64,000 bases of DNA from Phycisphaerales bacterium. GTDB lineage: Bacteria; Planctomycetota; Phycisphaerae; Phycisphaerales; UBA1924. The stretch covers positions 744,001 to 808,000 of the forward strand of contig JAJDDK010000006.1 of assembly GCA_029260345.1 (NCBI GenBank), given 5' to 3'. The translations under genes and the position numbers were made by a program. The notes beneath the pieces were generated by a model. It saw only the letters and a list, made by a program, of their open reading frames with translations, was not told the origin of the DNA and did no database searches. Of the stretch, positions 18,463 to 22,956 are shown one piece after another (position 1 is the first letter of the stretch; each line of letters opens with the position of its first letter).

Positions 18463-19024
18463 GTCGCTCCTCAAGCTGGGCGCGAAGCGTCTGCATCGTG
18501 CGCCGCAATCGGCCGTCCGCGGCGCCCGGTCCAATCCCGAATCGCCGCCCGATCGCATTTAGTTTCATTCCAGTACGAAATCGAACATTCAGAAGATCAA
18601 AGGCACCATGATCAAGTGAGGCGATTTCATTTCGCATTGACTCAACGAGATCATTCAATTCAACGGCGCCACGCACATCGGATGATGCGTCTGCCGCGAC
18701 ACGCAGTTCACGAAGACGTCGGCGACGCTCCATCCGCAAGTAGTCGTAGGCCGTCGTCATGGCGACGCGGCTCAGCCACGCGTCGAGTTCGTCCTCGGTG
18801 CGCATCGGTTTGATGTGACGAATCACGCGCATCATCGTGTCCTGAACGAGATCGAGCGCCGTCGCCTCATCCACTCCCGTGCGCCGGCGGAGCTTTCGAT
18901 ACACCTCATCGAACTTTGCGTCGTAGAGACGCCCAAACGCCTCCACATGCGCGTTCGTATCGGACGAAGCCGACGCGATCGCTGAAGTAATCTCATACAC
19001 GTCGTGCAATGGGCGCTCCCACAA
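18446..19024 (-). CDS. ECF-like sigma-70 family RNA polymerase sigma factor
   Basis: 192 residues. Region 2 is seen in AFGRLYDAKFDEVYRKLRRR, ATALDLVQDTMMRVIRHI and DAWLSRVAMTTAYDYLR; region 4 in LNVRFRTGMKLNAIGRRFGIGPGA followed by a basic recognition helix. The start is unsettled: TTG at 19024 or GTG at 19000 are both possible. The gene lies between the STN-like gene (33-base gap) and the overlapping membrane protein, suggesting one three-gene transcription unit controlling envelope functions. Confidence 0.82.
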   Translation of the reverse strand: MWERPLHDVYEITSAIASASSDTNAHVEAFGRLYDAKFDEVYRKLRRRTGVDEATALDLVQDTMMRVIRHIKPMRTEDELDAWLSRVAMTTAYDYLRMERRRRLRELRVAADASSDVRGAVELNDLVESMRNEIASLDHGAFDLLNVRFRTGMKLNAIGRRFGIGPGAADGRLRRTMQTLRAQLEERHDAPE

Positions 19025-19057
19025 GCCGGCGAAAAGTTCGATGCGTTCCCCATCACT

Positions 19058-20017
19058 TTATTTGCCGCCGCCAGTGATCTTCGAGAGATAGTCCCGGGCG
19101 TCCTTCAAACGCATGGAAAGCTGCCGCAATTCCTCTTGGGCGATCTGATGCTCGGCCTCCGCCTCCACCAGTTCCAATTCCGCCTCGCCTATCCAGGATT
19201 CTGCGGCGACCGGCGACATGGCGCCCGATTTGAGCTGCGCCTGCGCATCGTCCGACTTGGCCACAAACGCCTTTCGAGCGACTTCTTCGCGTTTCTGTGC
19301 GACGCGAAGCCGCGCCTGAGTCTCGATCAATTGTGATTCAAGCGATCGAATCAGAGCGCCGAATGAGTCGGCCTCGGAGGAGGATCGGCTGGTGTCACCA
19401 CGCAGTTGTCCAAGCGTCTTGTCCACGAGTTGAAGCTGCGCTTCGGTGCCGCGAACGATGAGAAGCGATGTGGGCTCGTGAAACCGAATGGTTGATTCCA
19501 CAGGGAACGTCGCCAGCGCGACTTGAACCGCGCCAAGGACATCGTCGGCGCTTCGGTTTGAGGAGATTGTTTCAGTCAGACTCCAAACCGAACTTTGCAG
19601 TTCGCCCCAGCGGCTGCGCGTGGACACCTCATACTTGACCCGAACTGCCGGATCCCATGAGCCGGACACACCGATGGGAGCAATTCCAATTCGCGCTTCT
19701 CGGCCATCGGGCAGCTCAGCGGTTCCTTCGAGAAGTCGCATCGCCGCCTCCAGTGTGATGTTGCGGAGCTGCATGGGCGGGATCGGGAATGACGCCGCAT
19801 CCTGTGGCGACACGACATTGGCGCCAGGGTGTGCGGTGCGAACGGCCTCGAGAAACGCGTTCAACTCACCGCCGGGAAAGTCCAGATTGAACAGGGGCGG
19901 CGAATTCGTCGGTTGCCGGCCGTCCTGTCCGGGCGCTTGGGCAAACAAAGGCGCCGCGCATGCAGAAGCGATTGAGACAAGGACAAAGATCTTTGCCAAG
20001 TGGCGACGTGTGAGCAT
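19058..20017 (-). CDS. Exported protein with secretin-N-like domain and C-terminal coiled coil
   Basis: 319 residues. Signal peptide (residues ~1-27, APLFAQAPG). Residues ~40-190 resemble a secretin/TonB short N-terminal (STN) and N-domain arrangement: ITLEAAMRLLEG and the recurring LIVRGTEAQLQLVDKTLGQL motif, which is the classic secretin N-domain ending. The remainder (from ~220) is a long heptad-rich coiled coil (QLIETQARLRVAQKREEVARK). No secretin pore domain is present. The ATG at 20017 has GGAG with good spacing; a TTG at 20035 is less likely. It heads the putative operon with the sigma factor. Confidence 0.65.
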   Translation of the reverse strand: MLTRRHLAKIFVLVSIASACAAPLFAQAPGQDGRQPTNSPPLFNLDFPGGELNAFLEAVRTAHPGANVVSPQDAASFPIPPMQLRNITLEAAMRLLEGTAELPDGREARIGIAPIGVSGSWDPAVRVKYEVSTRSRWGELQSSVWSLTETISSNRSADDVLGAVQVALATFPVESTIRFHEPTSLLIVRGTEAQLQLVDKTLGQLRGDTSRSSSEADSFGALIRSLESQLIETQARLRVAQKREEVARKAFVAKSDDAQAQLKSGAMSPVAAESWIGEAELELVEAEAEHQIAQEELRQLSMRLKDARDYLSKITGGGK

Positions 20018-20171
20018 GAGTGAACTCCAATTCAAAGTGCGGCCGGAGGACGACGCCCGCCCTCACCAAGAAGTTGAACGGCGCCAGTCTCAAAATTTCG
20101 CGCGAATTTGAGTTTTGAATTCGCCCGCGTGGGGCTCGCGGCTGGGGCCGACATCTCTATACTCCCCCCCT

Positions 20172-21288
20172 ATGCACTTTGACTCACACAAAACCGTCAT
20201 TGAAGACCTTGAGGCGCGGATCTTGACAATCCGCGACTCTCTTTAACTGGGACACCAAGACCTCCCGCTTGGCTGAGCTTGAAGCGCGCATGGGCGCCGC
20301 GGACTTCTGGGATTCACCGGATGACGCTCAGGATGTCGTCAAAGAGTTGAAGATCATCAAGGCCCAACTCACCCCGCTCCGCGAGGCGTCCGACACGCTC
20401 GACGAGGCCAAAGTCGCCTACGAACTCTCCAAGGAATCAGGCGACGCCGATCTGCTTACCGAAGCCGACGAGCAGCTTTACACCCTTCAAGAGACGATGG
20501 ATTCTCTTGAAATCCGCTCGCTTCTCTCCGGCAAGCACGATCATCGTGATTGCTTCATGACCATCAGCGCCGGCGACGGCGGGACCGAGGCCAACGACTG
20601 GGCCGAAATGCTCTTTCGCATGTACCTCAAATTCTTCGACAAGCACCCCGAGTGGAAAATCGAAGAACTCGCCATGCAGCATGCGACGGAAGTCGGCATT
20701 GACTCCGTCACGCTGCACGTCACCGGCCCGTTCGCTTACGGCTACCTCTCCACCGAGCGCGGCACGCACCGCCTAGCCCGCGTCAGCCCATTCAATGCCC
20801 AAGGCAAACGCCAGACGTCGTTCGCCACGGTGGACATCACGCCCGAGTTTGAAGACACGGCGCTGGAGATCCCGGACAAAGACCTCGACATCATGTACTT
20901 CGCGCGGTCGAGCGGACCAGGCGGGCAGAACGTCAACAAGGTGGCGTCCGCCTGCCGCGTGACGCACAAGCCGACCGGCATCGCGGTGGTGGCGAGCACA
21001 TACCGAGATCAGCCGCAGAACAAACGTCAGGCGATGAACATCCTGATGGCGAAGCTTGAGCAGATCGAGGAAGAAAAGCGCGCCAAGGAATTGGCCGACG
21101 TGACGGGCGGCGCGGTGGATCGTGGCTGGGGCACGCAGATTCGCTCGTACGTCATCTATGACAATCGAGTGAAGGACCATCGCACCGGGTACGAAGTGGG
21201 CAATCCGCAGGTCGTGCTTGATGGGCACTTGCAGGGATTTATTGACGCAGAATTGATGCGTCGCCGCAAGGAAAAAGGGAAGGGTTAG
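20172..21288 (+). CDS. prfB: Peptide chain release factor 2, with +1 frameshift at CTT-TAA-C
   Basis: RF2 releases peptides at UGA/UAA. The zero frame from ATG 20172 runs 24 codons to TAA at 20244-20246; skipping T20244 (CTT then AAC) joins it to the body, giving 371 residues. The spliced junction RDSL-NWDTKTSRLAELEARM aligns with the RF2 N-terminal helix around the E. coli frameshift site. The body contains SPF (VSPFNAQGKR), the stop-codon reader of RF2, and the catalytic GGQ (SSGPGGQNVNK). Unlike the usual CUU-UGA-C, the internal stop here is UAA, and no Shine-Dalgarno-like stimulator precedes it. A sequencing indel in the T run is the alternative. A TTG-initiated shorter protein from 20269 would lack the first helix. 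Confidence 0.9.
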
Positions 21289-21455
21289 GGCGAAGCCGAC
21301 GGTTGGAAAATGATTTTGTTCTAACCGACCGGTCCAAGTAGGCTGTAAAGCTTTGATGTTGAAGTGCTGACGGCTCCAAGAGCCAGCAACGCTTCGAATG
21401 CGAGAACCGCAACGGCGGCGCGCAACCTTCGTGCCGATCTGCTGAGGATTTGATC

Positions 21456-21800
21456 ATGTGGGGTGGCTCATCACACTTCGCAGGAGGAGGCTCCGCCGCC
21501 CGGCCATCAAGTGAGCAAGAGCGATTGGCGCAAGCGCGCTTGCCAGGTCCGAAGACATGGGTGCTCGTCGCCTCTTTTCTGGGGTTTGATGCACTGTTCA
21601 TTGGCTCCGGGGTTGCTTTGATTTGGAAGCCGGCGATGCCGCTTGAGCGAATCGGCGGATGGGTGCTTGTGATTAGCGGCGCCATCTTGTTTATGTTCGG
21701 CGTGGCTTATCTGGTGCGCATCTGGTGCTCCGCTCGCGCACAGTCGCAGTCGCTATTTTGTGCGAATGACCACGACCACGAAACGCCCGATTCGATCTGA
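21456..21800 (+). CDS. Small two-helix membrane protein
   Basis: 114 residues with two predicted membrane helices (WVLVASFLGFDALFIGSGVAL and GGWVLVISGAILFMFGVAYL, residues ~32-55 and ~68-90) and a Gly/Ser-rich, then His/Asp-rich hydrophilic end. A GAGGA lies about 8 bases before the ATG. The 3' end overlaps dapL by 35 bases in another frame, which is unusual and lowers confidence in the last ~12 residues. I do not recognise a family. Confidence 0.55.
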   Translation: MWGGSSHFAGGGSAARPSSEQERLAQARLPGPKTWVLVASFLGFDALFIGSGVALIWKPAMPLERIGGWVLVISGAILFMFGVAYLVRIWCSARAQSQSLFCANDHDHETPDSI

Positions 21801-22956
21801 GCGTCTCGGCGCTCTGCCGCCATACCTCTTTGCCGAGATCGACCGCAAAAAGCGAGCGAAGATTGCCGCCGGCGCGGATGTCATCAATCTCGGTGTTGGT
21901 GATCCCGATCGCCCCACGCCCACGTTCATTATCGAAGCGCTCCAGAAAGCCGCGATGGACCCGCGCACGCACCCCTACTCCCCCGGGCGTGGCTATCCCG
22001 AATTCCGCCAGGCCGCCGCGACGTTTATGAAGAAGCGCTTCGGCGTCGATGCGGACGCTGACAAGCACATCACAACATTGCTCGGCTCCAAGGACGGCAT
22101 CTCGCATTTGCCCGCCGCCGTGCTGAACCCCGGTGATGTCATTTGTGCGCCGGACCCCGGCTATCCCGTCTATTCCAGCGGCGCCCTCTTCAATGGCGCC
22201 GAAACGCACCACATGCCGCTGACCGCTAAGACCGGATGGACCCCCGTCTTCGAAGACATTCCTGCCGACGTGCGCGACCGCGCCCGACTTCTTTGGGCGA
22301 ACTATCCGAACAACCCGACCGGCGCGACGGTCGAATTGTCGTTCTTCGACACCATGGCGCAGTTCTGCAATGAGCACGACATCATCGCCTGCTCCGACCA
22401 CGCCTACAGCGAGGTCTATTTCGAGGAAGCCCCGCCGTCGTTCTGGCAGTCGAAGCACGTGAATCTCGATGAAACTCACGCCATTGAGTTCCACTCGCTT
22501 TCCAAGACGTTCAACATGACCGGCTGGCGCATCGCGTTCGCCGTCGGCCATCCCGAAGTGATCAGCGCCCTCGCCGCAGCGAAAGACAACCACGATTCCG
22601 GCGTCTTTGGCGCCGTGCAACTCGCCGGAGCGGAAGCGCTCAACCAGTACGACCACCCGGACGTCGTCGCGATGCGTGAGGTCTACCGCGAGCGGCGCGA
22701 TGCGCTGACGCCGGGTCTGCGCGCCATGGGCTGCGAAGTCGATCCGCCCCGCGCCGGATTTTTCTGCTGGGCCAAGTGCCCGCAGGGTGTGGATTCAATG
22801 TCCTTTGCGACCCGCTGCCTCGAAGAAGCCAACGTGGTGGTGATTCCGGGCGCCGGCTTCAGCAAGCACACAGGGAACTGGTTCCGCATCGCGCTGACCG
22901 TTGAGGCTGAACGCATCACCGAAGCGGTGGAGCGCATGAAGCGCCTCAATTGGTGA
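21766..22956 (+). CDS. dapL: LL-diaminopimelate aminotransferase
   Basis: 396 residues. DapL converts tetrahydrodipicolinate to LL-diaminopimelate in one step, bypassing succinylated or acetylated intermediates. Motifs of the family: LGVGDPDRPTP, PGYPVYSSGALFNG, NYPNNPTGA, SDHAYSEVYF and the PLP lysine in FHSLSKTFNMTGWR. The ATG at 21766 is preferred over GTG at 21760. DapF, the next enzyme toward meso-diaminopimelate, is also in this window (45994-46878), which supports the DapL pathway for lysine and cell wall. Confidence 0.92.
   Translation: MTTTTKRPIRSERLGALPPYLFAEIDRKKRAKIAAGADVINLGVGDPDRPTPTFIIEALQKAAMDPRTHPYSPGRGYPEFRQAAATFMKKRFGVDADADKHITTLLGSKDGISHLPAAVLNPGDVICAPDPGYPVYSSGALFNGAETHHMPLTAKTGWTPVFEDIPADVRDRARLLWANYPNNPTGATVELSFFDTMAQFCNEHDIIACSDHAYSEVYFEEAPPSFWQSKHVNLDETHAIEFHSLSKTFNMTGWRIAFAVGHPEVISALAAAKDNHDSGVFGAVQLAGAEALNQYDHPDVVAMREVYRERRDALTPGLRAMGCEVDPPRAGFFCWAKCPQGVDSMSFATRCLEEANVVVIPGAGFSKHTGNWFRIALTVEAERITEAVERMKRLNW

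Follow-up and report, generated by a model that had tools for sequence, protein, structure and literature searches.

A putative upstream hairpin at a UAA-bearing prfB frameshift site in a Phycisphaerales bacterium and its relatives

Frameshifting in the RF2 gene prfB is the textbook example of programmed +1 slipping, and its canonical form is reportedly that of E. coli. We examined a prfB locus in a 64,000-nt stretch of DNA from a Phycisphaerales bacterium (contig JAJDDK010000006.1, positions 744,001 to 808,000; hereafter the window, whose own numbering we use). It resembles the canonical cassette in its leader of about 25 codons, its CUU slip codon, the stop followed by C, the RF2 main frame in +1 and the presence of tRNA-Leu(GAG). 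It differs from that cassette in having UAA for UGA, in lacking the SD-like AGGGGG three nt upstream of CUU and in carrying a covarying hairpin there. UGA is read only by RF2, whereas UAA is read by both RF1 and RF2.

The slip site and its stop codon among relatives

From ATG 20172, 24 sense codons, the last of them CTT (20241-20243), lead to TAA (20244-20246) and a C. The elements of the shift cassette itself are as follows.

20172..20246, plus strand: prfB leader open reading frame, 24 codons and a TAA stop, MHFDSHKTVIEDLEARILTIRDSL followed by the stop (from the ORF reading and relatives)
20241..20247, plus strand: slip site CTT-TAA-C (C follows the stop in 102/102 family genes with CTT-stop)
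20245..21288, plus strand: RF2 main frame after the +1 slip, first codon AAC, stop TAG at 21286-21288 (from the ORF, profile and alignment)

Reading TAAC as one step gives a product of 371 amino acids in which the SPF and GGQ motifs are present. This joined product matched the NCBIfam prfB model TIGR00020 with 410 bits against a cut-off of 370, over profile positions 2-352 of 353, and its alignment with E. coli RF2 runs ungapped through the junction. The sequence, the profile match and the gap-free alignment thus bear out the claim of an earlier note on this DNA, namely that a 24-codon leader ends in CTT-TAA-C and that a +1 slip there would give full-length RF2.

In order to place the site among its relatives, we surveyed overlapping sets of 120 family genomes, 40 relatives, 101 class genomes and 109 phylum genomes, and inspected the slip site of 294 distinct prfB loci, with identical 750-nt copies counted once. 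The tree and the covariation analysis used the 194 shift genes of family, order and class. One locus is incomplete (L032), one was not recognised as RF2 (L205), and one with TTT-TGA at its start codon was counted as in-frame (L252); a further locus has two tandem CTTTGA and was scored at the second, and its stem count is out of register (L213). Genes left out despite an RF2 match were mostly partial; they come from G061 in the family, from G277 and G305 in the class, and from G172, G188, G198, G200, G213 and G229 in the phylum. L428-L431 (from G121, G094, G201 and G180) were read and stand outside the counts.

Aligning prfB of relatives at this codon, the check that the earlier note had proposed, revealed TAA to be common in the clade rather than a peculiarity of this one genome. 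Among 109 distinct prfB genes of the window's family, 102 have CTT-stop-C, with 82 TAA, 20 TGA and no TAG. The remaining seven comprise five in frame without a shift, one cut off, and one with GTT-TAA-A (L278), which is kept outside the 102 shift genes; in this last gene GTT-TAA-A stands for CTT-TRA-C and one stem pair is broken, pointing to a failing or altered site or to an assembly error. The rest of the order has 15 shift genes (7 TAA, 8 TGA) and two in frame, and the rest of the class 77 shift genes (4 TAA, 73 TGA) and one in frame. In the rest of the phylum there are 64 shift genes (1 TAA, 63 TGA), 25 genes scored without a shift and one not recognised. TAG was found at the shift stop in none of the 258 shift genes of family, order, class and phylum. 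The 80 nearest public records, many of which are apparently the same genomes as those surveyed, include 77 with the shift (41 TAA, 36 TGA). Three such prfB genes close to that of the window (L321, L333 and L374) come from records titled Vicinamibacteraceae, Cyanobacteria and Limnohabitans, and are probably from mislabelled metagenome bins.

On the tree of the 194 genes the stop codon changed at least 15 times, with about 4.5 changes from TGA to TAA, about 10.5 from TAA to TGA and never one to TAG. It had been proposed that the Asn codon following the slip, in place of Asp, fits a UGA-to-UAA transition. Asn and Asp do track UAA and UGA, but with so many changes a single recent UGA-to-UAA transition does not account for the pattern. 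In the excerpts of a survey of more than 12,000 genomes that we consulted (Prince 2025, PMC12421855), TAA is found in 1.4% of the 8,164 motif-bearing genomes and is judged not broadly fixed in clades, and the texts returned by our literature search, as far as they were accessible, contain no mention of a UAA fixed in Planctomycetota. All 80 nearest public records are MAG or uncultured, which may explain why a RefSeq survey missed this clade.

Two readings would make the shift itself illusory. That the site reflects an error in sequencing or assembly, or decay of prfB, has nothing in its favour beyond the unusual codon. It is refuted by the comparison, and we give it practically no weight: the same CTT-TAA is found in 82 of 102 family genes with RF2 otherwise intact, including four single-contig genomes (G052, G082, G122 and G124), and a read error can therefore be ruled out. 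The other reading, raised by the earlier note, is that translation of RF2 starts internally, at TTG 20269 or a later ATG, and that the leader is irrelevant; an open frame of 339 amino acids does begin at this TTG. Yet the leader is conserved as protein, its last ten residues being recognisable in most class genes read, and it is fused in frame with RF2 in 5/109 family genes and in 8/204 genes of family, order and class. A start at TTG 20269 is for these reasons disfavoured. The RF2 profile, moreover, begins inside the leader, with position 2 of 353 at residue 11, and internal initiation appears very improbable. Nor could a start be borrowed from further up, since a main-frame stop, TGA 20224-20226, lies just upstream of the slip site. 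Comparison thus establishes the predicted prfB +1 site with UAA.

The hairpin upstream of the slip site

The earlier note reported no SD-like stimulator upstream, and duplex energies agree. The best anti-SD duplex of the 15 nt before CTT has a median of +0.2 kcal/mol in the 102 family genes, compared with -10.7 kcal/mol for the E. coli motif, -5.8 kcal/mol in 64 other planctomycete genes and -4.0 kcal/mol in the class outside the window's order. Bases -12 to -8 before the stop read AAGGA, AGGGA, CAGGA, AGGGG and similar in the rest of the phylum (CGGGA in 8/64), CGGGA in 52/77 genes of the class outside the order, and CGCGA (93/102) or CGTGA (8/102) in the window's family. With the CGTGAC arm, present in 10 genes of which eight belong to the family, the duplex is about -3.7 kcal/mol, so that loss of the SD is incomplete there. 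The genome's 16S 3' end is canonical (GGATCACCTCCTTTCT), ruling out loss of the anti-SD as the cause. Sparse use of SD sequences across the lineage was considered as another possible cause: an SD duplex of -4 kcal/mol or lower precedes 38% of 50 ATG open reading frames in the window versus 29% of positions inside genes.

SD-like sequence is missing from 86/93 UAA genes versus 39/101 UGA genes. We considered whether UAA arose because the SD was lost, but the association was not significant in independent pairs on the tree (median p 0.5). UAA also stands beside an SD-like or partly SD-like arm in two genes, CGGGAC in L157 and AAGGAG in L091 (outside the class), and thus does not require SD loss.

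The absence of an SD-like sequence is only part of the picture: what the earlier note overlooked is a covarying hairpin in its place, made up of the following parts.

20211..20213, plus strand: lower stem, 5' strand GAG, pairing with 20237-20239 (from the fold)
20215..20221, plus strand: hairpin 5' arm CGCGGAT (from the fold and covariation)
20222..20228, plus strand: 7-nt loop CTTGACA, containing the main-frame stop TGA 20224-20226 (from the sequence)
20229..20235, plus strand: hairpin 3' arm ATCCGCG, coinciding in part with where canonical sites have the SD-like sequence (from covariation and the duplex scan)
20237..20239, plus strand: lower stem, 3' strand CTC, running into the E-site codon TCT at 20238-20240 (from the fold)

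The predicted fold, GAG-G-CGCGGAU-CUUGACA-AUCCGCG-A-CUC, has an energy of -14.4 kcal/mol (20200-20243) and a z of -2.67, and 1/200 shuffles was as good; in a 151-nt fold the hairpin persists with a z of only -1.94. Relative to the stop, the 7-bp stem and its 7-nt loop span -29 to -9, the 3' arm occupying -15 to -9 and the lower stem -7 to -5, while the E. coli SD-like hexamer lies at -12 to -7. No known RNA family was found in Rfam at E up to 1 in 19000-22000.

All seven pairs are present in 101/102 family genes (L252 left out), 13/15 other genes of the order, 53/77 of the class and 1/64 of the phylum, and in 72 of the 77 shift genes among the 80 nearest public records. The three-pair lower stem is complete in 99/102 family genes, 10/15 other order genes and 12/14 genes of family f68, as compared with 4/63 remaining class genes and 7/64 other phylum genes. 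In the groups where it is mostly complete (the window's family, the order and f68) the arm is nearly always CGCG or CGTG, a distribution that fits a stem extended where the SD was lost. Families f66 and f74 are predicted to shift without the stem: all seven of their genes have 0-2 pairs, and AAGGAC, AGGGAC or CGGGAC precedes the E-site codon. Weak stems occur in part of f7, f67, f71, f77 and f80. Outside the class, one gene of family f64 (L234) has a full CCCGGAT/ATCCGGG stem, and the element may thus reach beyond the class.

The loop has regularities of its own. A stop codon of the RF2 main frame falls within it in 83/102 family, 13/15 other order and 12/77 other class genes, and the loop Leu, present in 67/102 family genes, is always TTG or TTA, with TTG at 5% elsewhere in the gene. 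The loop stop may keep out ribosomes that have entered the main frame beforehand; alternatively, the sequence of the loop may be what counts. Different hairpins were seen in two other places: folding E. coli K-12 prfB (L432) gave GGAACG-CTCCGA-CGTTCT just upstream of the SD-like sequence, and in class family f74 (L107, L111, L112 and L115) we noted by eye GAGCGC/GCGCTC upstream of the SD-like sequence, matched as GAGCGT/ACGCTC in L111. Hairpins beside the SD in prfB sites may be more widespread than described.

Two of the seven stem pairs, (-28,-10) and (-25,-13) relative to the stop, join synonymous third codon positions. Across the 194 genes these two rank first and second in mutual information among 231 third-position pairs, at 0.677 and 0.327 bits, with the next at 0.316. 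On the tree they co-changed 7.0 and 6.4 times, which is 13.9-fold and 10.3-fold what is expected; of the 136 tested pairs, no other with at least three co-changes reached so high a ratio. Pairing was kept in all co-changes of the first pair and in 6.0 of 6.4 of the second. Ranked simply by how many pairing co-changes they show, the two come first and fourth of the 136, since rapidly evolving sites also change together by chance. G-C, C-G, A-U and G-U all occur at the covarying pairs; covariation is open to these two pairs only, as the peptide largely fixes the remaining five. Codon use in the family is skewed relative to the rest of the gene, with GCG in 101/102 versus 32%, CGG in 99/102 versus 23%, CTT in 102/102 versus 6% and GAG in 101/101 versus 72%. 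Finally, all seven pairs occur in 167/194 shift genes and in 0/8 in-frame genes (Fisher p 4e-7, uncorrected for kinship). Each of these in-frame genes, which come from family, order and class, forms between 2 and 6 pairs, and in six of the eight the Ala required by the stem is Glu. Taken together, the comparison strongly supports the hairpin as a selected RNA structure.

These data bear on two further explanations of the conserved nucleotides. One holds that selection acts on the nascent leader peptide (ARIxxIRDSL) or on codon choice, and that the hairpin is a by-product of near-palindromic Arg-Ile...Ile-Arg coding. The leader peptide is indeed highly conserved and the amino acids largely set five of the seven pairs, but the free third positions covary and the stem codons are far from the gene background. 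Furthermore, in L044, L048 and L056 the compensatory change to CGCGCAT/ATGCGCG preserves the pair while altering the peptide, from Ile to Met, and in-frame homologues keep much of the peptide and not the full stem. We consider this explanation quite unlikely. We also regard as unlikely, if somewhat less so, that the shift is real and needs no stimulator, with the hairpin serving another use such as mRNA stability or attenuation at its U-rich tail, where RF2-dependent release would lead to RNA polymerase termination. A terminator-like scan did pick the hairpin with ACTCTCTTTA (1 found, 0.5 expected by shuffles), and the tail is weakly U-rich. However, this tail belongs to the shift cassette and is found without the hairpin: the E-site codon before CTT is TCT in 36/64 other planctomycete genes, and none of these 36 forms the full stem. 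The 22/102 family genes in which TCG interrupts the U tract all keep the full stem. The stem also adjoins the shift site, with constant spacing, at the position expected of the SD duplex.

Release factors and feedback

UAA is also an RF1 codon and the genome encodes a full-length RF1, so that RF2 need not be the only factor in the feedback. The earlier note argued that UAA would change the feedback logic; it may do so, although RF2 still reads this stop. The RF1 product has 364 amino acids, with PAT and GGQ seen by eye; its best NCBIfam model is RF1, at 374.6 bits, below the model's cut-off of 400. A further GGQ protein of the genome, the third, is short and, judging from its size, may be ArfB.

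Several observations nevertheless make RF2 feedback with a UAA sensor plausible. The lack of TAG among the 194 genes, despite about 10 changes from TAA to TGA, suggests that readability by RF2 was kept. K-12 RF2, with Thr at position 246, leaves UAA mainly to RF1, whereas the RF2 studied here has Ala or Ser at this position, in UAA and UGA genes alike. Stop use in the window (34 TGA, 10 TAA and 4 TAG in 48 likely open reading frames) suggests much RF2 and little RF1. RF2 rather than RF1 would presumably be the main reader of this UAA.

Proposed mechanism and its meaning

We propose, with a probability of roughly 0.7, that the locus is a +1 frameshift cassette for RF2 autoregulation, where an mRNA hairpin behind the ribosome would act as stimulator instead of the SD/anti-SD duplex. 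The ribosome would translate through the hairpin until CUU reached the P site, with UAA in the A site. Were RF2 plentiful, termination would follow at UAA; were it scarce, the ribosome would wait and the hairpin could refold at the mRNA exit. The refolded 3' arm would sit where the SD/anti-SD helix lies in E. coli, with the lower stem reaching the E-site codon. Refolding would pull the mRNA back, tRNA-Leu(GAG) would slip from CUU to UUU, AAC would be read next and RF2 would be made. This tRNA slips from CUU to UUU in E. coli (PMC13245932), and two tRNA-Leu(GAG) genes were found among the 13 long tRNA genes whose anticodons were read, of 53 in the genome. We infer that the shift occurs at CTT-TAA-C, and the position and covariation of the hairpin make it the likely stimulator.

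Engineered systems offer the closest parallel. The excerpts of Cho 2013 (PMC3639245) ask whether a hairpin acting in cis might do the work of the SD duplex, and those of Huang 2018 (PMC6321510) describe an engineered upstream hairpin that, in an E. coli 70S system, stimulates +1 shifting at CUUUGA about 60% as strongly as the SD does, more weakly with a destabilised stem and only without RF2. Like those hairpins, as presented there, ours is a stable stem directly 5' of the slip site in place of SD/anti-SD. By the same excerpts, the Huang 2018 stem is an engineered, GC-rich 12-bp stem with a UGCG loop, in contrast to the natural, evolutionarily conserved stem of 7 bp plus a 3-bp lower stem found here with UAA. 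The prfB hairpin looks like a natural case of an upstream-hairpin +1 stimulator. According to the excerpts of Prince 2025 (PMC12421855), nearly all shift-using bacteria have one mechanism with an SD-like stimulator, and the accessible parts of the texts in our literature search describe no natural upstream hairpin for prfB.

Structure within the mRNA is also used at other recoding sites. Barley yellow dwarf virus and gene 60 represent other kinds of event, namely -1 shifting and bypassing, and are not known to involve release-factor feedback. Both share with our locus a structure in the mRNA upstream of the recoding site, in the form of 5' stem-loops (gene 60 take-off; excerpts of PMC5009743).

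Extending this reading from the locus to the class, we think it slightly better than an even bet that in most families of Phycisphaerae the SD/anti-SD stimulator has been joined or supplanted by a cis mRNA hairpin in the exit path. In the window's order and in f68, the SD would have been lost in nearly all genes, most of them having a stem extended three pairs into the E-site codon, whose refolding would pull the mRNA and drive the slip. The sensor stop could then switch back and forth between UGA and UAA in evolution, and RF2 synthesis would come to depend on how much RF1 and RF2 together are available. Tools that detect prfB shifts by an SD and CTTTGA may miss these genes. If true, a clade with a covarying hairpin in the place of the SD would let one test in nature whether +1 slipping can be driven by any duplex located at the mRNA exit, an idea for which the accessible portions of the literature we searched describe tests only with engineered hairpins. 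The natural UGA/UAA pairs in otherwise like cassettes would likewise make the role of RF1 in the feedback testable.
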